A stretch of 64,000 nucleotides of DNA from Isoetes taiwanensis (taxonomy: Eukaryota; Streptophyta; Lycopodiopsida; Isoetales; Isoetaceae). Made by a program: the position numbers and the translations under genes. A model generated the notes under the pieces. The model was not told the origin of the DNA, did no database searches, and saw only the letters and a program-made list of their open reading frames with translations. The stretch is from positions 12,410,973 through 12,474,972 of the forward strand of contig JAJEKV010000038.1 in the NCBI GenBank assembly GCA_021234155.1, given 5' to 3'. Shown in pieces: positions 10,423-34,025 of this stretch. Position 1 is the stretch's first letter, and each line of letters opens with the position of its first letter.

Positions 10423-10430
<8 letters not shown>

Positions 10431-12339: not shown

Positions 12340-12530
12340 AATTTCTAGAATGTAAGGGAATCCAGGAGAATTAAAGGGAATATAAGGAAATCTCATAAAT
12401 TGTAAGAGAATCTAGGAAAATATACAAGTCTAACGGAATCTCTTAAAATCTAATTGAATCTAAGGGAATCTTCATAATATCTAAGGGAATCTAAGAGAAT
12501 CTTGATAAATCTTAGAGTTTTTTTAAGATT
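12340..12530 (+). repeat. Degenerate (AATCTAAGGG)-type repeat
   Basis: Phrases such as GAATCTAAGGGAATCT and TAAGAGAATCT recur with irregular spacing over about 190 bases. There is no coding potential. Confidence 0.55.
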
Positions 12531-13437: not shown

Positions 13438-13735
13438 TCCTTCAACCTTCATTCTTCTTCTTCCATTCTTGCATCCTTCTTCCATACATATTCTTCCATT
13501 CCCTTTGTCATCTTCTTCTTCGATTCTTCCTCCTCTTATACTACTTCTTCCTCCTCTTATTCAAATTCTTACTCTTAATCCTCCTCTTGCGCTTCATCTT
13601 CTTCGTATTCTTCCTCCCCATTTTCGGGTTCCTCCTCTTCTTCTTAGCCTTTTTCTTCTTGAATTCTTCCATTCTTCTTCTAATTTTTTTCCCATCTAAG
13701 AAGGCGTCGTTAAAAGGCGAGACCCTTCTTCTTTC
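13438..13735 (+). repeat. Pyrimidine-rich CTT/TCC tract
   Basis: Almost uninterrupted C/T with TTCTTC and TCCTCC phrases. It gives spurious open frames of Ser/Phe/Leu on the plus strand and Lys/Arg on the minus strand. It is best treated as low-complexity polypyrimidine sequence. Confidence 0.75.
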
Positions 13736-13751
13736 CACAATTTTTCCTTAT

Positions 13752-14115
13752 TAGTTGTTTTATACTATTTCTTTCTAATCATTGAATTTTTGTTTTGCAT
13801 GTACACTCCTAGCAAAATGTGTTGTTCTTGCAAAACAAGTTGGCACCTCTTCGGGTAAGGATTTAATTTTTCAATACGCTAATAAAATACTAATGCTTTA
13901 TTTAGGTTAAATTGTTATCCAAGAAGGGGACGTCATTGAAACCACCCCTCCCCCATTGATTTTCCATATTTTTTTTTCCTTTAAGTTGTTTATTTATACT
14001 AATATTTTACTAATCATTGAATTTATTGTTTTGCATGTACACTCCTAGCAAATCGTTGTTTGTGCAAAACAACTTTGCCTTTGTACCCGAGGTAAGCATT
14101 TAATTTTCAATATAT
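13752..14115 (+). repeat. AT-rich tandem duplication, period about 231 bp
   Basis: 13752-13890 and 13984-14115 share the order CTAATCATTGAATTT, TTTTGCATGTACACTCCTAG, then TGCAAAACAA, then a TAAG.ATTTAATTTTCAAT phrase. The copies differ by substitutions and small indels, which indicates an old duplication. Confidence 0.75.
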
Positions 14116-15812
14116 GCTTAATGTATTGATTAATGTATTTAGCTTAATTTATTGATTAATGTATTTAGCTAAAAAATTGAGGCTTCATTTATTTTTTGTA
14201 TTTTTAATATATTTAAAAGCGACATCATTTAATGGCGTTAAAATCTTATATTTCTTTATTGGTTAAATTCATTTTATAGGCTTTAAATTAAATGTATTAA
14301 CTTCATTCATAATAAATGTATTATTATTATTTTTTTCAATTTATAAAAAAAAAAAACTAGCAAAAAGGCACGCCAGAGGCCATAGAAAATAGAGGCGCAA
14401 GAAAATTAGGGCAAGGTAATTGGATACCAAACGATATTTGAATTGTCTTTTACGTTTTTTTTTCTAAACCATCTGAAAGCTTAATAAGGGCAAAATTGGA
14501 TTGAAATTTATGTCCATGATAGAAATAGCATTTTTGTTTGGATAGTTTAGATGGTGCCCCTGCGTTTAAGTTACAGTATTTCCTAGTTTTGGAAGGGCAG
14601 GATATGAGGTTGTTGTAGCTGTCTTTCGGTTGTGTCGTAAAGGTTTATGTAACGTCTTTCGGTCTCATTTGCCTTTTTCTTGCATTTGGTTTCTTCTAAG
14701 AGGTCGAAGTGGAAGTTTTTTTCGTACGGTTTGTGCTTGTCGACATCTGCTGCCATTTTGAGATTTGGTTTTGTTTTGTGCTGTTTGTACCTAGTTTATT
14801 GTTTGTCCTACGTATTTTTTGTTGTTCTTATTGCACGTTAGGCAATATATCTATATCGTAGGTTTTATTATCGTAGGTTTTATTTTGAATTGTTAGTTGT
14901 ATTAAAGTTGTTTTTACGTATAAATATTTTTGTTTTTTCCTTTTTCTTTAGTTTTAGTTCTGGTGTGTTTATAGTTATTAAAATAGGATTTGCGATTGAG
15001 ATCAAAATTGTATTGTATTACGTTGAATTGTTTAGCATTTTGAATAGTTTAGCATATGAAAAATATCAAAGTGAAATTGTAAGGGTATTAACTGTGAAGT
15101 TTATATCTCAAGCTTGATTGTGCTAAATGGTAAAGTAGTACAACTTTTAATCCGTGAATTGGCAGGCACTAGGAAATGAATAGAGGAAAAGAGTTAAAGA
15201 AAATTATGATCTAAGTTTGATCTCTCTATCTACACATGATAGAGCAAAGCTAGACAGTTGTTCTTGACAACTTTTGAAAGTTGACTTAGGCTTGTTCTTT
15301 CTATTTAAAGCTCCCTCTATTTAAAGCTCCCTGGGTTAGGTTCCACACTACGAGTTAGCGTGCAAGTATTATGAAGATAAAGTAGCATAAGTACAAGGGT
15401 TTTGGAACTGCCCAGATGCGTGAACGGTGTGCCTTCTCAGACTGATCAAATTGGTATTGGTAGAATTAGGTGTTACAAATTATTTGCAGACTTTAATTTT
15501 GAATCATATTTAAATGATTTGCAAAAGGAGTGCCATTGCATGTTCTTTTCATTCTGACTTTGCAAGTGTAGTTTATTAGCAAAAATCTGCTTTAAGCTCG
15601 ATTGGACAAGCTAGAGAACCCAGTAGTGACATATTAGTTTGCAATACCCATCTGGAATATATTATAAAAATGAATGATGTTCTTTGATATCTATCTTTGG
15701 TGTAAATGTTTATCTTTGATGTTCCCGAGCTGACTGCAAATACGCTACTTGTTGAAGCAAGAGTGCCTTGAGCTCCTTCTGGTTTGCCTGAGATCAAGAA
15801 CAATCTTTAATA
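14116..15812. other. Unassigned AT-rich DNA
   Basis: T-rich sequence with no supportable gene. The 75-codon frame at 14890-15117 is hydrophobic, biased by base composition, and without context. Confidence 0.5.
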
Positions 15813-17175
15813 CTAGTAATGGTGCCCAGCGTTGCTGGGCATCGTTAGAAACCTACAAAGATAGGGAACTTGTGAAGGAAAATTTTGAAGATATTTGTGA
15901 TTGCTTGTTAATTTCTTGTTGGATTATAGCGTTGGTTCTATGATGAACCTTTAGATATATGGTTCGTGTTTATTTGGCATTTTATATATCCATTAATTTT
16001 TTATTTTGATACAATTCTATGAATTCCTTGATGTGATAAGTATTATTATTGCAAAAAAAAAAAGCTTCTTGTTTTATAAGAATTTACCAATTTATTTGGC
16101 TTATCAACATAATGTGCCCCTCTTATTCTTTTGCCCTCCATATTATATTATCATAGATTGATGTTTAATTGGCAAAACAATGATAACTAAGAAATGTGAT
16201 CAATGTTAACTTGGTTCAGCATCAAAATAACGCAATACCATACAACATTAAGCAATACCATACAACATTAAATAAGATGGAGTCCATATTGTGCCAAATT
16301 GCTTATTTCATGAATTGCTTATTTATAATTTGCATCATACCACATAATCATTGGCTTTTTACAATTCCAACTCTGGTTTCAGAGCTTCATTTTTTATGGT
16401 TTGAGAACCTATGTAAGTGTTGTTGGCCTTGATGGGTGTAATGATACCTCACATTATATTCACTTAAAAGTACAAAATCAACATTCCAAAATCAACATGC
16501 CAATATGCTCACATCTTACCCATGCTAGCTGCGTTTGATTGGCTCATATACAATTATTTGATCTCATAACACCATCTTCCATCTTTGGCCTAATCACTCT
16601 CATAAATGTCAAAAACAAACAACCCTTCATCTTTATTATAATTAGATCAAGTGAAGGACAAATTTTTCAAGCTGCTACTCTTTTGCCCAAGCTTCCAACA
16701 AATCATGCCTTCCACTTTGGCATATCACTTCCGATCACCAAAATTCTTGCATCTGCTAATTACCTCGTGCCCTGCCCTAGTTCTTGCATATCTTTACTTC
16801 TTGCATCCCTGTTTATTCGTCAGGAAGCCATAAAATCACAATCATAAGCCATTGTTAGCAAATTTAAAGCACTTTCTACAAATTTGCCCTCTTTGGCCCT
16901 GCTTTGGCTCACTATCAGATTCTTTAGGGCCCTAAAAAATTTTAATGTGAAAAAAGCAAATCCTGAACTGATGCACAGAACTGCCTTAAGGCCTTCTGTT
17001 CACTTATAAAGTAGGCAGATGCCTTGATATTGTTTTGGAAGTATATCTATGTAATTAAAACGAAGCATTGCCTGTAGACAATTATGAATAAACAAAAAAC
17101 CAAAACAAAGTATGAAACAAATGCAGATGGAAAAATGAAGCATTGCATACCTTGAATACTGTTGTCTAGATGTCC

Positions 17176-17501
17176 TTAATGCAACGAATCAGGATCACTG
17201 TTGCGGTCACCCATAGGACCAAATAACTATGCTTTGAAAACAGGGGACCTAGCAGCCAGAATAAGCTTATGAGCTTTTAATTCCTCTCCATCTACTTCAA
17301 GTGTGATGTCTGTATCTTCTCCATTCTCAAGAAGGCCACCAAAGTCCTGTCTTGATTCTGGTTCTGGTGTTGAATAGAATGCATCTTTGAACCTTGTGTC
17401 CAAGCTTGGACGACACCCATAGTGCGTTTAATCTCAAGGGTGCCATTCTTTAAAAAATTGGAGTGTCTCTCTTGAAGAATCGTAAGTCCAAGATCAACAT
17501 T
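17176..17501 (-). pseudogene. MATH-BTB (BPM-like) protein fragment, captured
   Basis: Intact BPM proteins are substrate adaptors of cullin-3 ubiquitin ligases: MATH binds the target and BTB binds the cullin. Here an acceptor ending TATTGCAG (17503-17502) precedes the MATH tail ([16 protein letters not shown]). After a frame change comes the BTB opening: [18 protein letters not shown], then [19 protein letters not shown], then LFGPMGDRN. The order and spacing match the MATH-to-BTB junction of plant BPM proteins. A TAG interrupts between FKA and LFGPM where the family usually has Gln (CAG to TAG). The reading ends at a TAA after SDPDSLH, so most of the BTB domain is missing. It is a broken copy inside Helitron C. 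Confidence 0.7.
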
Positions 17502-17640
17502 CTGCAATACTACAAAGGCAACGAACACACACATAAAACACACATTTGAACCTAAAAATCCCAAAAAAAGACACAGGATTGAGCGGGCAAAGAACATTTA
17601 CCACATATTGCTTCGATATTTCAACGTCCCAGCAACATAC

Positions 17641-17823
17641 CGTGACAGCATACTGTGATTTTGAAGGTGCTAAAACGGACAAAGCCCCAATTCCTGCGAT
17701 GATGTTGGTGGTTTCTGCTCCCAAATTGGCCAAACCTTGAACCATAGATTTTACTATAACCAAGCTGCTACTCCTGACCCAGACCGCTGCTCGAGACTTG
17801 CCATAGTCACCAAGAGCCATCTT
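17641..17823 (-). pseudogene. E1-like (ThiF/SUMO- or ubiquitin-activating) exon fragment, tentative
   Basis: The exon is bounded by a good acceptor (CCCTAGCAG before 17823) and donor (CACG|GTATGT after 17641). The minus strand reads MALGDYGKSRAAVWVRSSS and then VQGLANLGAETTNIIAGIG. The second part resembles the E1 nucleotide-binding segment, whose family pattern is roughly 'V.G..GLGAE..KNI.LAG..S.TL'. The RAAVW part would correspond to the RQIR-WG segment of E1 N termini. In E1 enzymes this fold adenylates ubiquitin-like proteins. The aspartates expected after the last strand are absent, so the match is partial. It lies 140 bp upstream of the BPM fragment, in the same orientation. Confidence 0.35.
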
Positions 17824-20800
17824 CTGCTAGGGCACAGGGAGATATGCAGCTATGACGGCTTGAATATACAAATCAAACATTTTATTCAATATGGCCATCT
17901 TTAATCTCTGAAAAAAAAGTGTGACATTGTATATCCCTGCATGCGACTGTGTTCCATGATAAGCAAAGTATTCTTCTAATGAGCTGAATTCATATATTTC
18001 TGCTAGACCTTTAATGTCAGGTTAAATAACAGTTTTAGAATGTTTTGAAATTTCCACATCCCACATCTTTGAACGATCATCAGAATCATAGTGCAACCCA
18101 AATCCCCCATCCACATCACGGTGGATCTGTATAATTCCATTGTAAAGTTGCATTAAATTCTAATTGGAGTTATCTGAGCTCTATTGCGAATTTTTTTTCC
18201 AGCATCCATCTGACCAGATCCTCAGAAAACCTTTTGATGTCTTTATGAGCAGGTTATGAAGTAGGAACAAAGATTATATCTGAGCAAATCTGAATCTGCT
18301 TCCTTCTGAATATGGAGCTCTAAGTTAATTTTAGATGCATCAAAATAGCAGAATTGGACTGTGTTGCATGCACACTATGTACACTGATTATGGTCTCCTG
18401 CTTCTACTTGAATCTAAAAGCTAAACCCATCTTAATTCAGAGTTGCCCATCGTTACCTTCCAGGATAGCCTCAAGGAGTTTTTCAACATCATTTTGAACC
18501 AGATAGTTGGATTTTTAAGAAGAACTCTTAGAATGAAAATAATAATACGCTATTTTCTGTAACCAAGGAAGAGATATACCTCATCAAGAACTCTACAATG
18601 TGCATTATGTGGAAAGGAGCTGGCAAGATTGAGCCATGAACAACAAATTCTGTGGCCACCCCTTAGATCCTATACATGGTATGTCGGAAGGTCTGAGATA
18701 GGAGATTTTAAAATTTCTTAAATATACCATCAAAGCAGCAACCTCGCATCTGCGCAGAACCACTTCATCGTTGCCATGATCTACTGTGCATAGCTAATCG
18801 GTCTCCAAAGGGTCTGCAAACCTGAACAGATAGGATGGATAACTGTTTCTAGCTCAACTCCGGTTAGCCCAAGCTCAAGAAGTCTCGAAATCCTCTGCTT
18901 TTGTGTATACATGTTTCAATCCGCTACAACACTCCCATGCCATTTTTGAGTCAGATCCTTCCCGCGAGGTTAAAATAATGAGGCAGAGCTTTAGCCAGAA
19001 AAGATCAGCTTTCAAATAAATCCCCTCCGGAGTTACTTGCCTCAGATTCGAAAGCTGAGGGCAAGCCCAAGCCCTAACCCGTCTGTTCTCTACCACAAAA
19101 CTGAACCTAGCTTTCTATTATCCTAGCTTTCTACAGCTATGGCATCTGCCATAGCCAAGGCCTCCCGCATGGTTTTCGAGCTATGGGTATGATCTCTGCC
19201 GTCTAAAGTAAACAGATGATCTCGATCGTCCGATTTAGGGCTGGATACAACATAGCATAACATTATAATATAGGACTAGTAAATTGCCCACCGTTGGTGG
19301 GCTTTACATGTGATTGTTCACCTTTGTGATCGTTCCATGTGATGTCTTGGAAGTGGGCTTAGAGTGAGGAGATGCGTGATTGATGGTATAAGAGTTTTGT
19401 TTGTATTAATTTAATGGTCTTAATGTGATCCAAATCAAATTAAGTAGTGTCTATTTGTTATGTGGTTATTTTGCATATGTTGGGCTTTTATAAAAGATAA
19501 ACCCATTATGTGTTGTATTTTGAGCACAAAGCCCAAAAGATTTTAAGATGTTAAGATAGTACCACGTAAGTCCATTCTGACTACATTCTAGAACCCCTCG
19601 GTTATAAGGTTTTAGAAAGCTTCTAAAATGGAAATCTCACCTAACCTTAAACTTGAAGCCCAAAATGAGGAGGACCTCTCAGATCATGATAAATCCCACC
19701 TAACAATCAATCCAATCACCGCTCAATCGTGCCTGAGAAGCCGTCTCATTTTCCTAATCCAGTTTCCTTGTGAAGTAACGGTTTCCAATCATACTGCTAT
19801 GAAATGCAAAATTGATCAAGACATCCAAACTCTATATGTGCCATAGTTGGGAGCAATCCACAATTGTTGTGTTGTTATGTTAGAAATATAAAATGTTAGA
19901 AATATAAAATGTATTCAACAACTTAGATGTGAAGCAAAAAATTGTAAACTGGGATTAGGCTAAAAGGCAAAAACTCTGTAAGGAGCAAAATAAAACCGAA
20001 AAATGTCAAGAACACTTTATAGTTTGCAAGGTGATGCTTTGCATATTCTTGCAAAGTCCATGGGAACAAAATATAAGGTATTGTTGGGATTTCTTTGGAA
20101 AAAGTTGTGCAACAACATTGTGATTCTTGAGATTGAGTTGGTATGCATTATTAAAAGAGCAAAATATAGCTATAGGTAATCCCTTATCAATTGTGTGGTG
20201 CACACGTCCTAAATTATGTAGCACGTTATGATGCATGGAGACCATTTTGTTTTATGGTGGTCTATTTTGTTTTAACAGCTATACTACATTGGCTCCAACA
20301 CTGAACAGTTTAATGTGTAAATGAAGTCATTAACATACCACTTTATGCTAAAGTACCACTTTATGAAATGGATTCTTTTTCTAAAAGCATTGATATGGTA
20401 ATATTGATTTTGAATCTGGATCTCTTCTATCAATTGGACTTGTAGTTTCACAAATCTCAACTACTTTGTTTCCATATCTGTAGGACTGAAATGGTTTCAC
20501 TTTCGGTGGGGTTTAACACATCTCAACTACTTTGTTTCCATATCGTTAGTAGAACATGCCCAACCGTAATAAAAATGATGCACAAACTTTCTATATTGCT
20601 AGACACCAACATACTTTGTACAACAATAAATTAGCCACTCGGATGACAAATTCTTTCGCACTGTTTCATCATTAGCTAAAAGTATTTCTACTGATCATCC
20701 TGCAATGAGAAAGGAAAAAAATAGTAGTTGTAAATTATCTCTTTGGATCGAATTTTGAAGGATTAAAGCGGTCTCGTAGCATGGCACCTATGACGATTGC

Positions 20801-20890
20801 ACCTATGGCATTTGTGAACTTCGATATCCGGATAAAAAGAAGATTGCACGCACGGCATTTGTGGATTTCAAATATCTGTATTGCGGCTTG

Positions 20891-22385
20891 AAATTTGCAA
20901 AGCTCTCCAAGTCATTGGTTACCTCTCATTGCTTTGTATAAAGGTGTCTCCTCCTTCTCAAGTAAGCATGCCCTCAATGTTTTTGGGGATGCACGGTGCA
21001 TTGCAATCTCTTCTTGTGCATCTTCAAAACTTCGGTAGAAAAGGTTAAAAATTGCTCATCTAACAAATCCCGAAATTAGAAAATAACTACTCCATTTGTT
21101 GCAAGTCTTAGAAAAATTTGGATAGTATTCGAAACCGGGGATCATGCCTTGACAATCTCCTAAGGAAAACAGAGCTAAACATGTGCAACTGTCGTTAAAG
21201 CAACCGCATCCAATCAACGGGTAACAAATATCTTGTTTTACACTTCCATTTGTTTTAACCCTTAGTTTCACCCCTACGAGGGAATGTGACTTGATCATTG
21301 AGGTTCTACCGCGTAAAAAGATGCATAACCTATGAAAATAGTTCATGAACTCTCGCCTGCCGTGAACCACTTCTTTTCTCGGTATGTTTGACTCATCTTA
21401 GATTGTTCTTCTTTCCGGATAAATATGCTATCCTTTTTTGCCAAGAAGCGGTGTCTTTAGGAATATGTGCCTTTTGCGAATACTTTGTGAAATCTGCAAA
21501 GCTCTCCAAGTCATTGGTTACCTCTCGACTTGTATAGCGTGTCTCCTCCTCGAAATGCGCATGCCCTTAATGTTTTTGCGGATGCACAGTGCGTGCAATC
21601 TCTTCTTGCACATCTTCAAAACTCTGCGAAAAGGTTAAAAATTGCTCATTTAGCAAATCGAAATTAAAATAACTACTCCATGTTGCAAAGTTTTAGAAAA
21701 ATTTGGATGGTCGGCGACTTGGGGATCATGCCTTGACAATCTCCTAAGGAAAGCAGACCTAAACATGTAAGAACCGTTAAAACAATCGCATCAATCAACG
21801 GTAACAAATATCTTGTTTTACACTTCCATTTGTTTTAACCCTTTTTTTCACCCTAGGGGAATGTCTTGACTTTATCATTGAGGTTCCGTTACACGGGGAA
21901 AAAGATGCATAACCTATGAAAATAGTTCATGAACTTCTGCTCTGTTGTTTGTGAACCACTTTTTCTGGTATGTTTGACTCATCTTAAATTGTTCTTCTTT
22001 CGGATAAATATGTTATCCTTTTTGCCTAGAATTTGTGTCTTAGGAATATGTGCCTTTGTGAATACTTTGTGAAATCTGCAAAGCTCTCAAAGTCATTGGT
22101 TACCTCTCGACCGCTTGTATAAGGTGTCTCCTCCTCGAAAGTAAGCATGCCCTCAACGTTTTGCGGATGCCTAGTCATTGCAATCTCTTCTTTAGCGCAT
22201 CTTCAAAACTCGCTTGAAAGGTTAAAAAATTGCTCATCTAGCAAATCCGAAATTAGAAAAATAACTACTCCACTGTTGCTGTAAGTTTTAGAAAAAAAAT
22301 TGGATAGAATTACGACGACTTCAAGGATCATGCCTTGACAATCTCCTAAGGAAACAGAAACTGAACATGTTGAAACAATAATTAA
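20891..22385 (+). repeat. About 0.6-kb tandem repeat, 2.5 copies
   Basis: Copies start at 20891, 21490 and 22072 with AAAT.TGCAAAGCTCTC.AAGTCATTGG (periods 599 and 582). Each continues through the same phrases, such as GATCATGCCTTGACAATCTCC and GATGCATAACCTATGAAAAT; the last copy stops near 22385. The copies differ mainly by many small indels rather than substitutions. I find no protein or RNA in the unit. Confidence 0.85.
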
Positions 22386-22619
22386 ATAAAAAAATTACTA
22401 AATTGAGTTCCCTAACTGGCTAGCACCTATGTACATGAGGATATGCTATCTCAAAAAATGTCAACCAAATTCCTTTACAGAAGCTTCTTCTCTTTCTTTC
22501 TTCCCGTCTACATTGCATTAAAGCTAGACCTTCACACACTCACCCCAACATTTGGTCCACGGTGAAAACAACAGTAAAAACAAAACACGGATTGTTTTTT
22601 GAAGATTTGAAAAAACCTA

Positions 22620-22860
22620 CGTAGTTATATGGAGGTGTGGTTTTCATGGATATCTTGTAGTTTTTTCTTAGGGGGCGGTTTTTTTTTTTTAAGAATGTGT
22701 AGTTTCTTAAGAAGGTGTAGTTTCTTTTTTAAGGATGTGTTGTTTTCTCGGGCGGTATAGTTTTTTGAAGGGATGTTTTTTTTTAAGGTGTTGTTTTTTA
22801 AGGTAGTGTTTTCTTGAGGTGTGGTTTTTTATGGTTTTCTAAGAATGCATGTATGATCAA
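22620..22860 (+). repeat. G/T-rich low-complexity block
   Basis: Repeated phrases of the type TGTAGTTT, GGTGTTGTTTTTTAAGG and poly-T, nearly devoid of C. There is no coding content. Confidence 0.65.
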
Positions 22861-22950
22861 GTTGTCCACATGCCATTACTGCCACAAAATGGCAGGATAG
22901 AAGTGATGTATGCATGCTTGACACACTCACTAGCATTTGACTTCATACAT

Positions 22951-22965
22951 GTGTGTGTGTGTGTG
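22951..22965 (+). repeat. Short (GT)n
   Basis: Seven GT dinucleotides in a row just upstream of the minisatellite. Confidence 0.8.
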
Positions 22966-23083
22966 AGCTTGTAGAGCGTGAAACTTGAAGACATCCATCA
23001 CTTGGCAACTTGTAGAAGACACAATGATACGAAGAACCAAAGATAGACACTGGTTTGGCATCATATAGGCATTGAAGGACTCA

Positions 23084-25962
23084 AATATGCCACACTCAAT
23101 CTAACATGGCACGTGGGCTCCAAAATGCCAAGGTGGCTCAAATATGCCACGTGGGCCCCAACATGCCACCTAGGCTCCAACATGCCACGGTGGCTCAAAC
23201 ATGCCACGTGGGCTCCAACATGCCACCTAGACTCCAACATGCCAAGGTGGCTCAAACATGCCACGTGGGCTCCAACATGCCAAGGTGGCTCAAACATGTC
23301 ACCTAGGTCCCAACATGCCACCTAGGCTCAAACATGCCAAGGTAGCTCAAACATGCCACACTGGCTCCAACATGCCACCTAGGCTCCAACAAGCCAAGGT
23401 GGCTCACAACATGCCACCTAGGCTCCAACATGCCAAGGTGGCTCAAATGTGCCACCTAGGCTCCAACATGCCACCTAGGCTCAAACATGCCAAGGTGGTC
23501 TAAACATGCCAAGGTGGCTCAAACTTGCCACGCAGGCTCAAACATGCCACCTAGGCTCCAACATGCCAAGGTGGCTCAAACGTGCCATATAGGCTCCAGC
23601 AAGCCACCTAGGCTTAATTCAACATGCCAAGGTGGTTCAAATATGCCAAAGTGGCTCAAACATGCCACGCGGGCTCCAACATGCCACCTAGGCTCCAATA
23701 TGCCACCTAGACTCAAACATGCCACCTAGGCTCAAACATGCCATGCAGGCTCCAACATGCCACCTAGGCTCCAACACACCAAGGTGGCTCAAACATGCCA
23801 CCTAGGCTCCAACATGCCAAGGTGGCTCAAACATGCCATCGAGGCTCCAACATGCCACCTAGGCTTAACCATGCCTAGGCTCAAGCATGCCATAGTGGCT
23901 CAAACATGCCACTTGGCCTCCAACATGCCACCTAGGCTCCAACATGCCAAGGTGGCTCAAACATGCCACAAAGGCTCCGACATGCCACCTTGGTCCAACA
24001 TGCCAAGGTTGGCTCTAACATGCCACCTAGGCTCAAGCATGCCAAGGTGGCTCAAACATGCCACTTGGGCTCCAACATGCCACCTAGGCTCAAACATGCC
24101 ACCTAGGCTCCAACATGCCAAGGTGGCTCAAACATGCCACCTAGGCTACAACAGGCCAAGGTGACTCACAACATGCCACCTAGGCTCCAACATGCCAAGG
24201 TGGCTCAAACATGCCACCTAGGCTCCAACATGCCAAGGTGGCTCAAACATGCCATCTAGGCTCCAACATGCCACCTAGGCTTAAACATGCCAAGGTGGCT
24301 CAAACATGCCACGTGGGCTCCAAGGCCACCTAGGCTCCAACATGCCAAGGTGGCTCAAACATGACACGGGGCTCCAACATGTCTTCAGGGCTCCAACATG
24401 CCAAGGTGGCTCAAACACGCCACCCTGGGCTTCAATATGTCAAGGTGGCTCAATTTGCCAAGGTGGCTCAAACATGCCAAGGTGGCTCAAACTTGCCAGG
24501 TGTGGTTTCCAACATGCCACCTAGGTCCAACATGCCAAAGTGGCGCAAACATGCCACCTAGGCTCCAAAGATACCACAAGGCTCCAACATGCCAAGGTGG
24601 CTCCAACATGCCACCCGGCTCCAACATGCCAAGGTGGCTCAAACATGCCACAAAGGCTCCAACATGCCACCCTAGGCTAACAAGCCAAGGTGGCTCACAA
24701 CATGCCACCTAGGCTCCAACGTGCCAAGGTGGCTCAAACATGCCACCTAGGCTCCAACATGCCACCTAGGCTCAAACATGCAACCTAGGCTAACATGCCA
24801 AGGTGGCTCAAGCATGCCACGCGGGCTCCAACATGCCACCTAGGCTCCAACATGCCAATGCGGCTCAAACATGCTAAGGTGGCTCAAACATGCCACCCAC
24901 GCTCCAACAGCCAAGGTGGCTCACAACATGCCACCTAGGCTCCAACATGCCAGGTGGCTCAAATGTGCCACCTAGTTTCCAACATGCCACCTAGGCTCAA
25001 ACATGCCAAGGTGGTTCAAACATGCCGTGGTGGCTCAAACATGCCACTTGGGTCCAACATGCCACCTAGGCTCAAACATGCCAAGGTGGCTCAAACATGC
25101 CAAGCGGGCTCCAACATGCCACCTAGGTTCCAACATGCCAAGGTGGCTCAAACATGCCATGTGGGCTCCAACATGCCACCTAGGCTCCAACACACCAAGG
25201 TGGGTCAAACATGCCAAGGTGGCTCAAACATGCCACGTGGGCTCCAACATGCCACCCTAGGCTCAAACATGCCACCTAGGCTCCAACATGCCACCTAGGC
25301 TCAAACATGCCAAAGCGGCTCAAGCGTGCCACATAGGCTCCAACATGCCACCTAGGCTTAAACATGCCAAGGTGGTTCAAACGCGTCTCCACATAGGCTC
25401 CAACATGCCACCAGGCTTAAACATGCTAAGGTGGTTCAAATATGCCAAAAGGTGGTTTCAAACATGCCATCGCGGGCTCCAACATGCCACCCAGGCTCCA
25501 ACATGTCGAGGTTGCTCCAAACATGCCAAGTGGCTCAAACATGCCATGTGGGTCCGTGGCATGTTTGAGACACCTTGGCATGTTGGAGCCTAGGTGGGAT
25601 GTTTGAGCCACCTTGGCATGTTGGTTTAGCGGCGTGTTTGGCCATATTGACATGTTGGAGCCCACGTGGCATGGTTGAGCCACCTTGGCACTTTGGAGCC
25701 TAGGTGGCATATTTGAGCCTAGGTGGCATGTTTGAGACACCTTGGCATATTGGACCCTAGGGTGGCATGTTTGAGCCACCACGCTGAGGTCTAGGTGGTG
25801 TTTGAGCCGCATTGGCATGTTGGAGCCCACTGGCATGGTTGGAGCCACCTTAGCATGTTGGAGCCTAGGTGGCATATTTGAGCCTAGGTGGATGTTTTGC
25901 CACCTTGGCATGTTGGAGCCTAGGTGTCATGTCACCCAAAAATTTGACGTGGCCACCTTGGC
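23084..25962 (+). repeat. 19-bp minisatellite with an internal orientation switch
   Basis: About 150 units of 19 bp occur as two main variants: ACATGCCACCTAGGCTCCA and ACATGCCAAGGTGGCTCAA. Units run in plus orientation from about 23084 to 25553 and in the opposite orientation from about 25557 to 25962. Because 19 is not a multiple of 3, three units give a 19-residue repeat when read as protein, and this produces several long spurious frames on both strands. No promoter, start context or non-repeat coding flank supports translation. It lies inside Helitron B. Confidence 0.95.
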
Positions 25963-26183
25963 AAGATCCCCTCCCAGAACTTTGTGATATGTCACTCCAT
26001 GGGAACTTTCCACCCAGGGCTTGGTGATCACATCAATCCCAACAATGGTGTTAATTGACACTGTGGCTCCCCAGGTCGTTCCCGTAGAACGGATGGCGAG
26101 TGGAATCTAGACCTTAGTTGATGTCATTGACGAACAAATACTTTAGTAAAGTTTATTGGCCATTTTAAAAATTTGAATACTAT
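25963..26183. other. Short unassigned segment after the minisatellite
   Basis: A moderately GC-rich stretch with no recognisable feature. Confidence 0.4.
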
Positions 26184-27110
26184 CTAATAAATACCGTGGT
26201 CCCGATGAAGAACCGTGATATTTATAACTCTAGAATTGTGAAGGTGTCTTTGCAGATATTGTAGATCTAAATTAGTATGAAAGCCGACCGGGCATTTTGC
26301 TTTGAGGGGGAAGAAGACGTATTTTTCTACGTTCCTTAAGGTCCGATTGTGGATAGCATCTGGCGTCGCCTGGCACATGTTGGGCAGCCAAGGGCTTTCC
26401 AATTAGAGCTCCCCGAAAGGTGGCGGCATGGCGATGAAGGGGGGGCAGGTCCCTCCTTTCAAATTTGCATAGCTTCTTCAAATCTTCAAGAGTTTCTTCA
26501 AATCTTGTCGCTTTGTGGAGTCCATCCATTGCAAAGGATTAGTCCGCGGTAAACCTCGACCGAGAAGGCCTTGGGGGGAAATTTGTCAAATGCGTTTGAA
26601 GTGAGAGGAAGGGGAAAAGACTTGGCAATTTTCGGTACCGGTTTTATATTGCCAAAATGCACAAGATCTTCTCGAGGTCGAGAGAGGGTGCCTTCAATTT
26701 CCTTGATGAGGGATTTGATGAATCGAAGCTCCCCTTTGCTCCTCTCAAAGTTTGGAATGGTTGGGAAGTGATTAATGACTAGCATCGTAGCGCGGTGTAA
26801 CACCATTGCTAGGAGTGTATATAGTTTTGCTTCATCTTGCAGCCCTCAAGTTCCATTCCCATTCCCTGTTTCTAGCTCTATTAGGCGCGCTTGCGGACCC
26901 ATCGAGAACCATAGTTTTGTAGCCCGAGCAAAAAGGCCACCTATGGTGGAGGTCGGATTTACACCATTGAAGGCCGCAATGATTGCCGTTGATACAATTT
27001 CAATTAATCTTCTATATTTTGCTTCAAGCCATGGTTCCGTGCAAAGGGCACTCCTATTAATTGGGGGTCAATTTGACCCCATCTTGACCCATTAGGTGGC
27101 TCCGGATCTT
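26184..27110 (-). pseudogene. Decayed reading frame of unknown family
   Basis: The minus strand reads as protein over about 300 codons with one internal TGA and then frame changes. Segments in order: LIEIVSTAIIAAFNGVNPTS, GGLFARATKLWFSMGPQARL, then (after the TGA) LYTLLAMVLHRATMLVINHF, SKGELRFIKSLIKEIEGTL, AFSVEVYRGLILCNGW, and in another frame FEETLEDLKKLCKFERRDL. Codon-level regularity and mixed amphipathic composition suggest a former gene or transposon protein. I do not recognise a domain. It lies in Helitron B on the same strand as the element, so a captured gene fragment is possible. Confidence 0.4.
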
Positions 27111-27369
27111 CCTAGCCGCAAAAGATATTTTATAGAAGGTGCCGTCATCTCGACCGCCTATAAACCATAATACAAGCAATAAACCATAATACACCATAAG
27201 AAACCCATGTATTCAATGGCCGATTAATGTCAAAATGGACGGCACAGATTTTGATCCAGTCCTATCATTTTATTTTTATTGGTCGTTCAAATTAGCGAGC
27301 GTTTCCCGCCTCCAACCGCTTTAACCCATCATGGGAACCTATTCTCCCCTTAAGCGGGACTAGCCTATT

Positions 27370-27590
27370 CGCCGAGCTACTATGGCCTATTCCATTCCTG
27401 TTAAGCCCATTCCACTATTGCTTAGCTATGGAGCCTATTCCACTATTAGCCCAGCTATGGCGAATGACTCCGACTATGGCGAATGGCGGCTCAAACGACT
27501 CAAAATGGCGAATAGCTCCCGGCTAATGGCCCGAATGGCCCAATCCTCGAACTATGGCGAATGGCGGCTTTCTTCATCATTGCTATAGTT
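27370..27590 (+). repeat. Irregular CTATGGCGAATGGC repeat cluster
   Basis: CTATGGCGAATG.C recurs three to four times among CTATTCC..CTATTAG phrases over about 220 bases. Similar GCTATGGC phrases occur near 2.95 kb. Confidence 0.55.
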
Positions 27591-28559
27591 CATATCGAAG
27601 TGTGGCTCAATTTAATGCCCTAAGCTGCTTCTTGAGCAGGTATGAGAGTTATTGTATGCGGCTTGAGGCAAAAAGCAGAAGCAGGAGGTTACATTTGAAG
27701 CCGTTTTACTCGATACAAAGGTACTATGAAAAACACTCTGAAAAGAGATGTTTGTAGATTTAAGTGTGTTTATGCCTAGTCTGTGTTTAAATTTATTTGC
27801 TCTGCCGGGGGTTTTTATTAGCTGGAACCAGTGAAAATCCTGCTATGTATTTTGTTCACGAAGCCAAGTTTGGCTTTGGCTTCTTTTCGAGCAAGCATAA
27901 CGGGCTTGCAAAAAATGAAGTTATTTAGCATAGCAGGTTGGCAATGTCGGATATAGAATCTCTATTACCTCGATATTTATCCTTGTTATTCTTTTTGGAC
28001 TTATATTTTTGTATCGGAAGGACTTCTTTTGTCAGGTGTGTTTAGCCAAGAGAAAAATGATTGCCAAGACCTCATGGCCAGGAAACCTACACCTTGTCGG
28101 GTAACCTTATTTTGTTTTTCTGTTTGCCAAGTTTTTCTTAGAGAACTAAGATTCGTATGGCCGGAGTTAGGACTTGCAAATCAGGAAGGATAGTCCGATC
28201 CAGTGGAAAAAGAATAGCTCTTGATGGAGCATTCAAAGGAAGCGGATATTACTTTCCGGCTCTAGAAGCATATTTGGTCTATCTCGATCTTTAATACAAA
28301 ATCACGATGAAGGAAAAATTGTAGACATTTCTATAAATTGGGGAAGGAATCTTGTTTTACTGATTTGGTTTGAGAACGGATGGAAAGAAATGAAGCCAAG
28401 AAATGTTGTGAACCTTAACAACTATTTAATTGTTTAAACCTTGACCATTGATGTAATATTTTTAAACATAATGTTTTAATCTAATGTGGATTGCAATTTA
28501 ATAATGCCTTATGGGATTGTTTTGGGTTGACTCCCAAAGGTTATGCAAAAACAATTATT
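27591..28559. other. Unassigned segment of Helitron B
   Basis: No coding segment or repeat supported. Confidence 0.4.
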
Positions 28560-28920
28560 GTTTTTGTAATTTTAAAAAAAGAATGCCACGTGGATCGATA
28601 TTTAATTAGCTAAAATAATGTTTTTATTTGGTAGTATACGAAAACAACATATAGTTCTTTAAAACTATGTGTCTTTATTTGAAAGCACCATATTTAAAAC
28701 AACTATTTAAAAACCCATGTGGATATTAGCAAACCACATATTATTTAGTTAAAACAACATTTGAAAACAACTAATATCCACGTGGATATTCTGTTAAACC
28801 ACATGTATTTTAGTAAAAACAATACTTAAAAAACAACCACTACTTAAAAACCACATGTGGATATTCGTTAAACTATATGTTATTTTTAGTAAAACAACAC
28901 CAAAAACAACATTGAATTTT
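28560..28920 (+). repeat. Diverged repeat built on CCAC[A/G]TGTGGATATT palindromes
   Basis: Four or five copies of a 65-85-bp unit combine AAAACAACA, ACCACATGT and GTGGATATT. One copy contains a perfect 18-bp palindrome, AATATCCACGTGGATATT, at 28773-28790 with a CACGTG core. Confidence 0.65.
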
Positions 28921-29333
28921 TATTAACAGGGACTATCAATTTTCTATGCATAGACTTTTGATACAAAAACTACACATTGTTTCTAGCATTTTAGGAACAA
29001 TACTATGGGTGGTCTTTAAGTATGTTTTTTTAGAAACAAACAAAAACTACACATTGAGCAAATTTTGGGGTTAGTGTGTTTCGCAAGGGACAAACTACAC
29101 AGGTTCAATATTCAATAAGTGATCAAATATTTCTTGTTTTGTTGAAAGGTTGCTCAAAATAATCCTCACACAAAAAGAATGCAACCACCTTTACCTCACG
29201 GTGATCCCCGGCCTTTACCGCGGTGATCCCCACTGAGACCATAGTTGCTCTTTTGTTCTATGAAAGAAGAAGCAAGCTTGACCTAAATATCACACATTAT
29301 TCTTCTTTGAAGGCCATTTCCTTTTCATCCCAA
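28921..29333. other. Unassigned segment of Helitron B
   Basis: AT-rich; 'CAAAAACTACACATTG' occurs twice. No gene seen. Confidence 0.4.
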
Positions 29334-30130
29334 TCATTTGGATGCATCGCGTGGGAACTCCCAGATTAACAATAGTATTTTGGAAGAGACAAAGTTTAAA
29401 GAAAAATTTAAATGGTAACTCCCGAGTCTTTGGAAAAGAAGAAGGGAGTCAGAGAAATTAAGGTTTTGAAAAATCGGTGATAGGCGCACGAAGCGAGATA
29501 AGAGAATTGTTTGTTTAAGACATCTAAGTAGCATCGATAACCAAATAAAGGAGGAGATTTTTGGAAGAATAAGACACGGGTTGTAGGCTCGAACCGCCAT
29601 AGTCATTTTCTTGCCACAACAAACCCTAAACCACGCTCGTCGTTCTTTTGCCCTAGTTCTCCTTCTATCCATAGGCGCTTTGATTTGCCTTCATGAAAGC
29701 TATTTGGTTCATACCTTGGCGTCCTTAACATATGATTGTCAAAGGTTTTTGGCCATAAAGGGATGGAAATAAAGGTACCTTTTGGATCCTAGAAGTTTCA
29801 AGAATGTCATTCCACGGCAGATGATGCGGATGGTTATTACTCGACACATTTACGGCTTTGCTTGCATTCGGGCAAATTTCTACATCGGTGCCGATTCGAT
29901 AGCTCGGAAGTGCATCAATTTGTTGGGGTTTTCTTTCACGGTAACAAAGGTGCAACAAACACCACTATAGGGATCTACAGGATCTGAGGTTTTCTCGTAA
30001 CCATGCACGACTTTTAAAAGCCTCACCGGATTCAAGAAGAGATGTAGCAATAGTTACCTCCGACTTAGCTTCCGCCATAGCCACGTCCAAGACATAAGCA
30101 GCAGCTGATCCATCTCCACGGCTAGAGTCG
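29334..30130 (-). pseudogene. Exon-like fragments near the 5' end of Helitron B, family unknown
   Basis: On the minus strand the first piece (about 30129-29980) is open and reads AAAYVLDVAMAEAKSEVTIA followed by TSLLESGEAFKSRAWL. This is Ala/Glu-rich and helix-like. It is followed by less convincing frames at 29958-29725 and 29672-29334, the latter opening MDRRRTRAKERRAWFRVCC. Their orientation and position just inside the 5' terminus fit captured host exons. No family is recognised, and the three pieces may come from different genes. Confidence 0.3.
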
Positions 30131-31875
30131 GGATTCAGAACATGCTATTGCAGAAAAACCTAAAGCAAGTCAAAATGTAACATCTAAGCCGTCCGATTTT
30201 ATTGAACGATCTCAGCCGTCCGATTTAGGGCGTGGTCCATTACACAACATTATAATATAGGACTAGTAACGGTACCCAGCGTTGCTGGGCATAATTTGGA
30301 AACCTATAAATGTTAGAAACTACTTTTGGGCCATTGAATCGTTTTAGGAACCTGTAAATTGCAAGTGGTCATTTCTATGGGGGGTTGATGTTGTATCGTA
30401 CTAAATTTCGTATACTTACTCTCTCTTGTTGCTTGCACATGAATGTGGATGTATTGTGGCTATAGATGCCTTGTGAACAACACCACCATGTAATCCTTTG
30501 AAGGTATTCTTGCGTTATTTCTTTGTTAGCATAGATAGCTTGTTCATTGTGTTTGCACCCTTATGTATAGCTACCTTTAAAAAGAACTTTGCACATCTAC
30601 CTAGAGTATCTTTAAAAATACTTGGTGTATGCAAATAAAATATGAAGCCCATATGCGTGTTCATGACTCTTGCTTATTAAATGTGAAACATTGCAAATAA
30701 AGCCTCCTATAATATATGTGTTATGCGACTATAATATCGTAGGAAAAAGCTTTGTCGAACCATTGCCAAAAAAATATGTTGCAACACAATAGGTTCTTCT
30801 TTACTCACATTATCATAAGGCAAAACCTTAATGAACTTATAACCCAATAATTACCATGTCAAAACTTATATGCATGCAAGCTTCCCAAAAAGGCGCAAGA
30901 AAAATATTGCTAGTGTGAGTGTAAGTCATCTTCTTCTTTATATGCACTTTCGGGGTTGCTATATGAAGTTGAGTTTTAATATGGGACTTAGGTTAAGATT
31001 AAATGGTGAAGTAATGATCTAATGGTAGGGTCAACAATGCAAACGAATGAATTTCCTCTATTATAAACGATTAATTGTGAAAGTCAAGGCCCTGTAAGGT
31101 AGTGTTATTTATGTCGTAATTATATAACATCGACATTCAAGAGGAATGAAAATCAAAATCAAAATGAATTTGAATCAAAATCACGGACTCTTGTCACAAT
31201 GGCAAAGATTACCTTCTATTAAAAAGGACACCACAAATAAATTGATGGGGCACGTGCCAAAATGTAGAACAAAATCATGGTAAGCTGTGAGATCTTAAAC
31301 ATCGCATTTTGCACAAATCATATCCTTCATGAATGTCTATATCATCCATCATATCACCATGAGACGACTTTTCTTCTGTTTGGACCAATAAGCTTATTTC
31401 AAGCACATCTTCTAAGCTATCCCGTTTGCTAGCAGTCAAACATTGACTATCAGATCGAAATCTAACTTCAAAAGCATTAAGCCAAAATATCTAAATGTGC
31501 ATATCACATGACTCTAAACTTGTCAGACTTGAGTCATGGAACAATGAATTCTTATCATCTTTGCTAGATTTTGACCTAATTTTCTAGCATCCAAAAGATA
31601 GCCCCGCAACATGTGTTTCATCAACTTTACCAAACTTTACCAGCTCCAAATATCTTGTTACACCAATGCAAAGAAGTTCATACACAATAGTTCTTTGGTG
31701 CTTCACCACTATTAATGTAAAGGACATAATCATGATATGATGGTGCAAACTGCAAAATAAAACATTTGTCAGCAAATAATCATTTCCAAGTAGTAGGAAA
31801 ATAAACTTTTGGTCCAAATTAGACTTGAACAATATCTGGTACCACATCATAAAAGTTTAGTGCATGAGAAACTGC

Positions 31876-31884
31876 CGAGCAGGA
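31876..31884 (+). repeat. Left 9-bp target-site duplication of the MITE
   Basis: CGAGCAGGA, identical to the sequence at 32021-32029 on the other side of the inverted-repeat element. Confidence 0.85.
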
Positions 31885-32020
31885 CCAATCGTGGTATTTA
31901 TCAACCACCGTCATGTTTGAACCAGCATGAAATAAAAAAAACTCCGTGTATTTTTTCTCTCAATGTGGTTTTAACATGACACTCACTAAAAAATTCGGTG
32001 GTTGATAAATACCACGATTG
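31885..32020. mobile_element. 136-bp MITE with 25-bp terminal inverted repeats
   Basis: The left end CAATCGTGGTATTTATCAAC... (31886-31910) and right end (31996-32020) are perfect inverted repeats over 25 bases. An identical 9-bp CGAGCAGGA on each side (31876-31884, 32021-32029) is the expected target duplication. Nine-base duplications are typical of Mutator-like elements. Too short to code for anything, it must have been moved by a transposase elsewhere. Its perfect repeats suggest a recent insertion, here inside Helitron A and within an exon-like minus-strand frame (DFFILVALLSCSA...SHALNF once the MITE is ignored). Confidence 0.9.
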
Positions 32021-32029
32021 CGAGCAGGA
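32021..32029 (+). repeat. Right 9-bp target-site duplication of the MITE
   Basis: CGAGCAGGA, identical to 31876-31884. Confidence 0.85.
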
Positions 32030-33122
32030 TAGAAGAGCCACCAATATGAAAAAATCTTGGATATCCTCTGGGCCTTTTAAGATGCCCATTTTCACCACCA
32101 ATTAGACAAAGATAAACAAACCTCATCATACCGTCTTACACCAGAGAAAATATTGAAGATTCTCTCATTAGTTAATGTGCTCAACTGGAAACTGCAACAT
32201 CATGGACAATAAAAGCAGCAACTTTTAGCATGACACTCAAGGATAGTTGTAGCCTCAACACTATCTTGGGTCCATCCTCTACTATGCGGATAACTATGAG
32301 TGGGTCTTACAGTTGAATAAGGTACTATGAAATATACATATTCTCCTACAAATTCACCAAGAACCGTTGCTATACACCTGCAAAAATAAAATCAGTTCGC
32401 TACTGCAGTAAACAGATATGTTTAAGTGTAAAATACAGAAAAAGCATGGTTCCTTCATGCCATTGCTCTATTGATGTCTTGTTTTGACATCCATGCTAGC
32501 TTCTCTGACATTTTGCTACCAGAACTCCCCTTTGTGCAAGTTTAGAAATTAAAATCTTTGATATCATGAACCATCCTAATAAGACTCTCTCTATGGAATG
32601 GAGCTGTAGATTAATGGCCATATTCATAAAAACAATCCATAGCAATCCTTAGTGCCTGTTCATAGCATCGTCATGTTGATTATTCTCTGCCTGTTCATTC
32701 TCTGCCGAAGTCAATCCCGATTTGCATGAAACAATACTGCATGCACCTTGATTTGCATGAAACAATACTGCATGCGCCTTGAGCTATCTGGCAAATTCCA
32801 TTTTAGTGGCTATTTGCATGCCAATTGCTGGCAAATTCAATCTCAGTGCCTATGTGCATGCCAATCAGTGCTAAATCAGTGCTGAATTCAACATGTATAT
32901 GGCAGAAATTAAAGCAAAGCAGTGCCCAAAAGGAAAGATCAAATCAGAAAAAAAAGGCACCGGTCTGTACTGGATTCGGCAAATATCATGCATATACTGG
33001 CCCATTTGTAGGATATTCGGCGCATAATGTAATTGTAGCTTATGCCCATTCTGCTTATGCTGCAAGATATTGGCAAGATATCTGCTTAATCTTTCCATCT
33101 GCTCAGGCCTGTCAAGGCCACA

Positions 33123-33339
33123 ACTATATACCACCCTGTAGTAACGATGGCTCAGGAATTTGTGCATAAAAGAGGCGAAATCTTCATCACCTACTCCTGG
33201 GCTATGCAAAAGTGTAGACTGCTGCAATTTTATTTGTCAATTCATGCCTCTCTTCTTCAGACAGTAATGCTGAATACACAATTGCCAATGCAGCTTCAAG
33301 GCTGTGGCCCGTAATGTGGATTCTAGCATCTGGGTTTTC
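33123..33339 (-). pseudogene. Class 3 lipase fragment, captured and broken
   Basis: Class 3 lipases are serine hydrolases acting on triacylglycerol or other acyl lipids; their nucleophile sits in a GHSLG elbow. After an acceptor (TTTTTTGATAG, ending at 33340) the minus strand reads ENPDARIHITGHSLEAALAI, then NKIAAVYTFA, then a TAG. A one-base insertion shifts it to PGVGDEDFASFMHKFL and YYRVVY. The order nucleophile elbow, AVYTFGQPRVGD, then YYRVVY matches plant members. GHSLG has become GHSLE, the Gln of FGQPRVG is a stop (CAG to TAG), and the frame shifts, so it cannot encode an active enzyme. The Asp/His part is absent. It lies in Helitron A, same strand. Confidence 0.75.
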
Positions 33340-34025
33340 CTATCAAAAAATGATGGAGCTTACCTCCTTCAAAATCAACAGAATGCATCTTCCATTTCTC
33401 TGTAGAATTCTAAGCTTCCTGTTAGACTTGCCAGTGCCGTCCATTGGCTGTCTCCTATTGGGACTATTGGCGGCAGTCTATCCTACAAATGTACAAATGT
33501 ACCGGAGGGAAAGAGCCGCTCAATCTGTTACTGGATTAAACCTTAGTCACAAATCACGCAGCAACCCTAACAAAATTCACGCATCAGCCATAGCTAAGGG
33601 AGAGACCTGCAACCATCGGGCGGCCGCCATAAGAGAGGAACGGAAAAAAAACCTAAACCATGGACTAAATCTTAGCCCTCGGATCTATGTCAAACGATCT
33701 GGGCCATTAGATCTAGGGCGTGGTCCATTACACAACATTACACAACATTATAATATAAGATACTTATCATAATCAGGTGCAAAACAGATAAGGACACTTA
33801 CTTTTCCCATTACATTTCAAGGCAAGGACTCCCATATGTACAATTGTTGTGGAATCTGACATTGTTTACTAATATGCATTTAATGACATGTTTAATAGTA
33901 TGCAGAATCATGATCCCTAAATATGATGTGCTACATTCCTGTTGTAGGGGAAAACAAAGGAAAAGGAAAAACATTGCCCGAATGAGGATAATGCTATTTC
34001 TATCAGACTGAAATAGCAGAGCTAA

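Follow-up and report, generated by a model that had tools for sequence, protein, structure and literature searches.

Three dissimilar Helitrons joined head to tail without intervening bases, and insertion of Helitrons at the 5' ends of resident Helitrons

Architecture of the array

The window, i.e., the whole 64-kb stretch of DNA that was analysed, carries on its minus strand three Helitrons, here called A, B and C, which follow each other head to tail. That they abut exactly, as claimed in a first-pass annotation, was borne out by direct reading of both junctions, with no base between the neighbours. The features are as follows (a slash marks a terminus or a junction):

33761..33761, minus-strand base: host A on the 5' side of the array, read from the sequence
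30263..33760, minus strand: Helitron A, 3498 bp, non-autonomous; 5' A/TCTTATATTATAATG; 3' GCCCAGC-AAC-GCTGGG..TTACTAG
30262..30263, minus strand: junction A/B, CTAG/TCC, 0 bases between
19276..30262, minus strand: Helitron B, 10987 bp including an insert of ~6.5 kb; 3' GCCCACC-AAC-GGTGGGC..TTACTAG
22534..29079, strand not given: CACTA-like insert in B, inverted ends ACACACTAACCCC and GGGGTGAGTGTGT, flanked by a 3-bp repeat GAA
19275..19276, minus strand: junction B/C, CTAG/TCC, 0 bases between
15813..19275, minus strand: Helitron C, 3463 bp, non-autonomous; 3' TGCCCAGC-AAC-GCTGGGCA..TTACTAG/T
17230..17427, minus strand: BTB fragment in C, 37 domain residues and then a stop; PF00651, E 1.2e-9
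15812..15812, minus-strand base: host T on the 3' side of the array, read from the sequence

Both junctions (30263/30262 and 19276/19275) read TTACTAG/TCCTATATTATAATG, and the outer flanks, GATAAGTA/TCTTATATT at A and CTAG/TATTAAAG at C, are the canonical A before and T after a Helitron, in keeping with insertion at this dinucleotide and no duplicated target. The 5' terminus TC is present in all three elements and is preceded at the internal junctions by G, not A. The 5' end that the annotation ascribed to all three is common to B and C (TCC), with A one base off (TCT). The hairpin-CTAG architecture ascribed to the 3' ends was found in each element, with CTAG read directly and hairpin cores of 6-8 bp ending ~10 nt before the terminus (DNA-fold z of -2.65, -5.01 and -4.66). 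In a pattern scan of the 64 kb, a GC-rich perfect hairpin followed by CTA[GA] and T occurred at four places, three of which are termini of A, B and C. Within the strict limits of this hairpin scan no Helitron end lies inside B, and internal ends in B were accordingly rejected. The 15-mer with up to three mismatches is not rare in the window (7 found vs 3.7 expected), so that, due to the AT-richness, its occurrence there has no significance on its own. The sole run of N in the window (43547-43646) is outside the array.

Pairwise comparison revealed that neighbouring units of the array are not copies of one element. The bodies are unrelated and common stretches of 25-70 bp are restricted to the termini: 25 and 48 bp at the 5' side for A and B, 29 bp (5') and 48 bp (3') for A and C, and 50 bp (5') for B and C. 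The join CTAG/TC between unlike bodies, by which adjacent dissimilar Helitrons of the maize type are recognized, is thus present in A, B and C. The longest stop-to-stop frame touching the array has 184 amino acids and no Helitron domain was detected in the 10 of 49 frames scanned; as no RepHel-coding frame was found in the array, all three elements are called non-autonomous. The Pfam search of these 10 frames gave three weak matches, none over the cut-off, with the BTB fragment being tested separately.

Relatives of the three elements

Relatives elsewhere in the genome were found separately for each element. One relative of A (C1075:1575519-1579035) matches both of its ends, at 89% over A 1-152 and 87% over A 3133-3498, and has its own flanking A and T. 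Two relatives of B (C1004 and C1063) agree with it at 97-99% over B 1-80 or 4-80 and also have its 3' end, and the idea that B combines the ends of two different elements was rejected on these grounds. Both probably represent one duplicated site, judging by their common host flank, and they directly abut the 5' end of another Helitron, which is not that of C. In a further relative (C264) the 3' body of B is combined with a different 5' end, so 5' ends are swappable in the B family. For C, the 5' end is matched at two loci and the 3' end separately at a third (L051, L044 and L040, respectively); no full-length relative with both ends was found among the relatives fetched.

In a co-location check of positions close to the termini of the three elements, neither A-3' with B-5' nor B-3' with C-5' lay together elsewhere among the matches listed. 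On the basis of these matches and of the junctions read, a single longer repeat A-B-C was rejected, and the annotated distinctness of the elements stands, given their unlike bodies and separate relatives. Relative ages taken from the nearest copies are only suggestive: the best long match is 83-84% for C and ~91% for both A and B, and the greater distance of its relatives weakly suggests that C is not the youngest element.

Genome-wide occurrence of edge junctions

In the genome of 1.66 Gb the 19-mer CTAG/TCCTATATTATAATG occurs 45 times exactly, vs 0 for a reversed-pattern control. Exact 5' ends number 999, i.e., 881 preceded by A and 118 by another base. Since junctions and 5' ends were searched as exact patterns, these totals are lower bounds.

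The simplest explanation for such joins is plain insertion at A/T without any preference for resident Helitrons, the array being a coincidence. It is in line with the canonical flanks, as A precedes 17 of 17 solo 5' ends and T follows 30 of 30 3' ends (11 solo, 19 head-to-tail) at the loci fetched. Nevertheless, random landing on the ~1.5e8 AT sites predicts only about 0.05-0.15 junctions with base preference included, and even the most generous setting (30,000 insertions, 50-fold clustering) predicts 7.4 vs the 45 observed. The count contradicts this explanation, except if most of the 45 derive from a few ancestral junctions, which the 30 read do not; plain insertion without preference is considered extremely improbable. 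Target-base preference was likewise rejected as the source of the excess, with factors of 1.3-1.5 for the edge site and about 4 for the inner site described below. The underlying upstream flank table comprises 78 distinct 8-mers from the 89 A-preceded among the 100 listed of 577 matches, leaving out 11 repeats as well as 11 rows with a base other than A in front, and its pattern excludes G at the first position; the downstream table holds 28 flanks (17 + 11). The excess points to the resident 5' end as a favoured target, apparently an oriented hot spot. The earlier proposal of stepwise insertion at the 5' edge is thus supported by the 45 junctions and by the inner sites, while its premise, that the host A and the first T of the resident recreate the target, is insufficient with 0.05-0.15 junctions expected.

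Reading of 30 of the 45 junctions revealed two classes. Four, all on one contig (C31), belong to a homotypic tandem family with units of ~2.96 kb and copies ~93% identical, and only these four agree with one another on both sides of the join. Each of the remaining 26 is a different pairing. Some upstream families are found again next to other partners (L074/L083 and L081/L090), and at L007 the downstream B-type end is the same as at the A/B junction of the window with a different upstream side. As 30 junctions were read and whole neighbours were compared for the two junctions of the window, some of the 45 may be homotypic concatemers.

These classes bear on the possibility that at least two Helitrons were joined first, as rolling-circle concatemers or as heterodimers formed by the transposase, and landed as one block. 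Tandem Helitron arrays are reported from bat and plants, and the C31 array fits a homotypic concatemer. The first-pass expectation that read-through yields identical copies is only roughly right in view of its ~93% identity. A, B and C, however, are alike in their terminal 25-70 bp only, no pair apart from C31 recurs as a unit among the 30 junctions read, and their own pairings were absent elsewhere among the matches listed. An origin of A-B-C in this way is therefore quite unlikely.

Inner-site insertions and orientation

Helitron insertions were further detected 5 bp inside resident 5' ends, at the inner site TCYTA^TATTATAATG, with 67 cases vs 1 in the control. Their position identifies the intruder at these sites as the upstream element. 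The matching upstream half, TCYTA/TCYTATATT on the same strand, was located 2.8-7.9 kb upstream at 9 of 20 checkable sites and was absent at the other 11 among the matches listed. This pairing covered 20 of the 67 sites and 93 of the 100 listed TCYTA-preceded 5' ends (307 matches), the other seven rows coming from contigs where none of the 20 sites lies. The 307 ends are more than the 67 inner-site 3' halves account for. Among the first 100 of 357 places in a gap scan (control 34), 54 had the length of an edge join and 10 that of an inner site, as assigned by match length, and 6-8 places each at gaps of 5, 6, 7 and 10 are without explanation.

Head-to-head joins are depleted. Only two were counted at edge and inner sites together, both classified as inner by match length, vs ~19 expected after correction for base preference and detection (P ~1e-6). 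For the inner site alone 15.7 were expected (P 2e-5). At the exact edge none was found vs 3.3 expected (P 0.04), a value that allows for base preference and takes its detection rate (9/20) from the inner site; here, considered alone, the orientation bias of the exact edge is weak. Taken together, insertion at or near the 5' edge of a resident in the same orientation is supported as a real process in this genome.

The inner sites also affect two further explanations. In the first, a Helitron circle carrying CTAG/TCCTATATTATAATG recombines homologously with a resident at the corresponding end, 5' or 3', which gives a head-to-tail arrangement without transposase cutting the resident. Such recombination alone accounts for the exact edge, the same orientation and the mixed pairs, and suitable substrates are described: Helraiser circles carry exactly a join of the CTAG/TC type (PMC4778049) and a wheat Helitron gives circular DNA coinciding with the element (PMC13286980). 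Nevertheless, it yields no insertions 5 bp inside a resident 5' end (67 vs 1, both halves at 9 of 20). Moreover, a crossover after base 3 at A/B predicts TCC outside and TCT at the junction, and the opposite is observed, the outer end of A retaining TCT like the A relatives fetched and the A/B junction retaining TCC. Besides, at their 3' termini A and B resemble their own relatives and are no hybrids. The diagnostic bases for this are few: the B relatives at C1004 and C1063 start with TCT and the B-type end at L007 with TCC. Recombination is accordingly regarded as unlikely.

In the second, newcomers join a resident at its 3' edge (CTAG/T, a non-AT site), and A would be the oldest and C the youngest element. 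Maize lines that contain the upstream element alone favour this direction (Du et al., 2008, PMC2267711); they fit growth in the 5' direction only if the other member of the pair was excised. At the inner sites, however, newcomers enter resident 5' ends, and the distant relatives of C (83-84% vs ~91%) weakly suggest that it is not the youngest. Insertion at the 3' edge is therefore very unlikely.

Proposed mechanism

The preferred reading, to which a probability of roughly two in three is assigned, is that A, B and C are separate non-autonomous Helitrons which arrived successively and in the same orientation at the A/T bond on the 5' edge of the respective resident, with an opened or Rep-bound end as the putative target. 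This bond is the expected nick point of the Helitron transposase at the start of transposition, and the 5' end of the resident is thus the putative target that presents a strand. An opened or Rep-bound end would offer one strand, into which the intruder, probably a circle with CTAG joined to TC, would be ligated, entering with the orientation of the resident. The hot spot would accordingly be created by nicking through Rep, and edge junctions would arise by the same route as inner-site insertions. From the polarity of the latter, the local order of arrival is predicted as C, then B, then A, with C the oldest and A the youngest.

The more general proposal, i.e., that the 5' end of a resident, at the bond nicked by its own transposase, serves as a strand-oriented hot spot for other Helitrons and that arrays grow stepwise in the 5' direction, joining unrelated gene fragments under one outer pair of ends, appears somewhat more probable than its negation.

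Comparison with known Helitron arrays

Head-to-tail Helitron joins have been attributed both to rolling-circle concatemers and to one insertion after another, and the direction in which the arrays grow was left open (Du et al., 2008, PMC2267711). Dissimilar adjacent Helitrons are already known from that maize study, which describes two such elements head to tail in the r1 region (AF466202). As in A-B-C, CTAG is directly followed by TC, the captured genes differ and consecutive insertion was invoked, and the idea of host A plus resident T was already stated there. The r1 pair is a single case of two elements, its polarity left open in that report, whereas the present genome offers three elements, a count over the whole genome, a test of orientation, and polarity from nested insertions.

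For the bat Myotis lucifugus, tandem Helitrons with perfect head-to-tail CTAG/TC joins have been described (Pritham and Feschotte, 2007, cited in PMC2267711). These are tandem repeats, a type to which the C31 array belongs and A-B-C does not. In Fusarium and Metarhizium, self-insertion is reported, with a FoHeli4 separated by 2 bp from the 5' end of another downstream of it, as well as three tandem copies attributed to 5'-end insertion or rolling-circle replication; that report presents single cases without statistics (Chellapan et al., 2016, PMC5148889). The circle junction of Helraiser has the same CTAG/TC form as the array joins, but belongs to the extrachromosomal intermediate of one element, whereas A-B-C is chromosomal and composed of different elements (PMC4778049, PMC5876387). 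Furthermore, maize Helitrons prefer insertion near Helitrons (PMC3288121; Yang and Bennetzen, 2009, via PMC12477314). This self-attraction resembles the present case but was reported at the scale of the neighbourhood; here, the preference is resolved to one bond and has an orientation.

Thus, one genome features homotypic and mixed joins side by side, in a number that is enough to exclude chance landing at A/T as sufficient and that adds an orientation bias, and its nested cases tell the second arrival from the first. Should resident 5' ends serve as targets, such arrays would offer a ready route to composite Helitrons with several captured gene fragments.

Captured and inserted sequences

The BTB gene fragment carried by C is broken. 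The sequence of B is composed of ~4.4 kb of its own Helitron and ~6.5 kb of foreign DNA (22534-29079), which is absent from the relatives of B, their matches running from B 1175-1184 to ~7731 without the insert. This CACTA-like insert has 21-bp inverted ends with 90% identity that start with ACACACTA, both these ends and the GAA on either side being read by eye, and contains a 19-bp minisatellite at 23103-25546.

Three Unlike Helitrons Joined Head to Tail

The array consists of three non-autonomous Helitrons, named A, B and C, whose limits were read from the sequence, and the second of which carries a CACTA-like insert:

33760-30263, minus strand: Helitron A, 3498 bp
30262-19276, minus strand: Helitron B, 10987 bp
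19275-15813, minus strand: Helitron C, 3463 bp
22534-29079: CACTA-like insert in B, about 6.5 kb, inverted ends ACACACTAACCCC...GGGGTGAGTGTGT, GAA on either side

The exact abutment proposed by the first-pass annotation was confirmed by reading the sequence, as zero bases lie between neighbors and both junctions are TTACTAG|TCCTATATTATAATG. The upstream flank of A, which starts with TCTTATATTATAATG, is GATAAGTA; C ends with TTACTAG followed by TATTAAAG, and host sequence devoid of all three elements would read A|T. Every 3' end features a hairpin, either GCCCAGC-AAC-GCTGGG or GCCCACC-AAC-GGTGGGC, closing about 10 bases ahead of the end of CTAG (fold z of -2.65, -5.01, and -4.66). Four places in the window have a GC-rich perfect hairpin with CTA[GA] and T; three are the termini of the array members, and the fourth is at 8081. 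This last is the 3' end of a further Helitron (hairpin-CTAG|T, 8081-8108, minus strand) downstream of the array; between it and C, no TATTATAATGTT-type 5' end was found with one mismatch allowed. Two more TATTATAATGTT motifs at 57199-57210 (plus strand) and 62584-62595 (minus strand) are possibly the 5' ends of other, decayed Helitrons. Besides, a run of 100 N outside the array (43547-43646) may be an assembly gap.

In pairwise comparison, only terminal sequence is common to the three, with 5' stretches of 25 and 48 bp for A and B, 29 bp (5') and 48 bp (3') for A and C, and 50 bp (5') for B and C. They are separate elements. A relative elsewhere in the genome (C1075:1575519-1579035; flanks ...TTTA|TCTT and CTAG|TTTG) matches A at both ends, relatives on contigs C1004 and C1063 match the first 80 bp of B at 97-99% as well as its 3' end, and the ends of C were found on separate relatives only (5' end at loci L051 and L044, 3' end at L040). 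The C1004 and C1063 copies are preceded by the same host sequence and thus probably represent a single insertion within a duplicated region. Their match follows B up to about 1184 and resumes at 7731, which identifies the intervening 6.5 kb or so as an insert carried by B. This insert has many genomic relatives near 80% and includes a 19-bp minisatellite (23103-25546), repeats of which are also present in inverted orientation (25555-25932). A frame within it at 26498-26845 (minus strand) matches PF14476 with 21 bits (E 1.8e-4; below the cut-off of 25) and may be a captured piece of a plant gene. Among the stop-to-stop frames that touch the array, none is longer than 184 aa, and hence none of the three elements encodes a RepHel transposase; C contains a broken BTB fragment (PF00651, 1.2e-9). 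A-like copies are clustered at L010, L013, L014, and L020 (contig C1099, 1.68-2.24 Mb), where some abut and 3' parts are repeated, with 2232949-2233803 ending at the start of 2231419-2232948.

The array is real and of an already known kind, having three members here instead of two. In maize, two unlike Helitrons joined as CTAG|TC were described, with re-creation of the target by host A and resident T offered as an idea and the polarity left open in the accessible text (Du et al., 2008; PMC2267711).

Junctions and Nested Insertions Across the Genome

The genome (1.66 Gb, 1110 contigs) was searched for exact patterns and for control patterns. The junction CTAGTCCTATATTATAATG has 45 exact copies, of which 30 were read, vs. 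0 for the reversed control. Those read comprise 8 at L001-L008, 20 at L073-L092, and 2 in the window. That the junction motif is part of one longer repeated unit, a possibility raised by the first-pass annotation, is rejected, since among the junctions read partners differ outside contig C31. Only four of the 30, all on C31, have both sides in common over at least 150 bp, three of them in a tandem array whose units measure about 2.96 kb and are about 93% alike. At L001-L004, this homotypic head-to-tail array is accompanied by the same junction 150 kb away on the other strand. Upstream families with differing downstream partners (L074/L083, L081/L090, L079/L080, and L006/L087/L088/L089) were found, likewise downstream families with differing upstream partners (L007 with the A|B junction, and L005/L078/L083). 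Joining of elements prior to insertion is disfavored, as repeated pairs are lacking among the junctions read outside C31. Whole neighbors were compared for the window's two junctions only, so the others may include same-family pairs. Of the 3' ends upstream of the 30 junctions, 21 passed a strict hairpin test, one of them weakly (5 bp); among the nine failing, some resemble degraded hairpins, and L086 shows none by eye.

The exact 15-mer 5' end follows A in 881 cases and another base in 118, and 45 of these 999 ends sit directly on CTAG. A random model with 10,000-30,000 insertions and 0.09 AT per base predicts 0.05-0.15 junctions, base preference included, or 2.5-7.4 when 50-fold clustering is allowed. 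It is true that host A and resident T recreate the target, but this leaves the junction frequency unexplained. Judging by the observed flanks, the edge, i.e., the A|T bond at the 5' end of a resident Helitron, is favored only 1.3- to 1.5-fold over the average AT site.

Insertion 5 bp into a resident 5' end (TCYTA^TATTATAATG) yields CTAG|TATTATAATGTT, which occurs 67 times in the genome vs. 1 in the control. Helitron 5' ends preceded by TCYTA (e.g., L095 and L097) number 307 vs. 0, and nested insertion accounts for only part of them. Pairing was examined with 100 listed of the 307, on whose contigs 20 of the 67 inner sites lie. At nine of the 20, a matching TCYTA 5' end on the same strand precedes the site by 2.8-7.9 kb, the reverse order was seen at none, and among the matches listed an upstream one is absent at 11. 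As the resident's first five bases lie upstream of the newcomer in the nine pairs, the element further upstream inserted later. For A, B, and C, the local age order is a prediction. At C1004 and C1063, TCYTA stands in a repeat run (TTCTTATCTTA|TCTTATATT).

A scan with variable gap yielded 357 places vs. 34 in the control. Among the first 100, 54 have the exact-edge length, 10 the inner-site length, and 1 the next-AT length; unexplained gaps of 5, 6, 7, and 10 account for 8, 6, 6, and 6 of the other 35. For edge and inner site together, two head-to-head joins were counted where about 19 were expected (P about 1e-6); their length assigns both to the inner site. For the inner site alone 15.7 were expected (P 2e-5), and for the edge alone 3.3 vs. 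0 seen (P 0.04). These expectations are corrected for base preference and an exact intruder 5' end, and the detection rate of 9/20 from the inner site was applied to both.

Resident 5' Ends as Probable Insertion Sites

Across the genome, the 5' ends of resident Helitrons appear to be a hot spot with a preferred orientation, which is a stronger result than the array itself. The edge is the bond where the Helitron transposase is proposed, in the text available, to begin its own transposition (PMC4778049, PMC5876387). A, B, and C are probably successive insertions, each at the 5' edge of the resident. If nicked or held by Rep, the 5' end of a resident could offer one strand as target; this would account for the exact position, for the additional site 5 bp further in, and for the bias in orientation. 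The best rival for edge junctions is that a circle recombined with the matching end of the resident, a process that would give such junctions but makes no inner-site insertions. At A|B it further predicts a TCT/TCC arrangement opposite to that seen, a point resting on one base, with B-type ends occurring with TCT and TCC.

No report of a one-bond, oriented Helitron hot spot was found in a literature search covering mainly freely accessible papers. As far as the accessible texts go, tandem arrays in bats and plants (PMC5876387) and a preference of Helitrons for inserting near each other (PMC3288121, PMC12477314) are cited, and a fungus is reported to have three Helitrons in tandem and one lying 2 bp upstream of the 5' end of another (PMC5148889).
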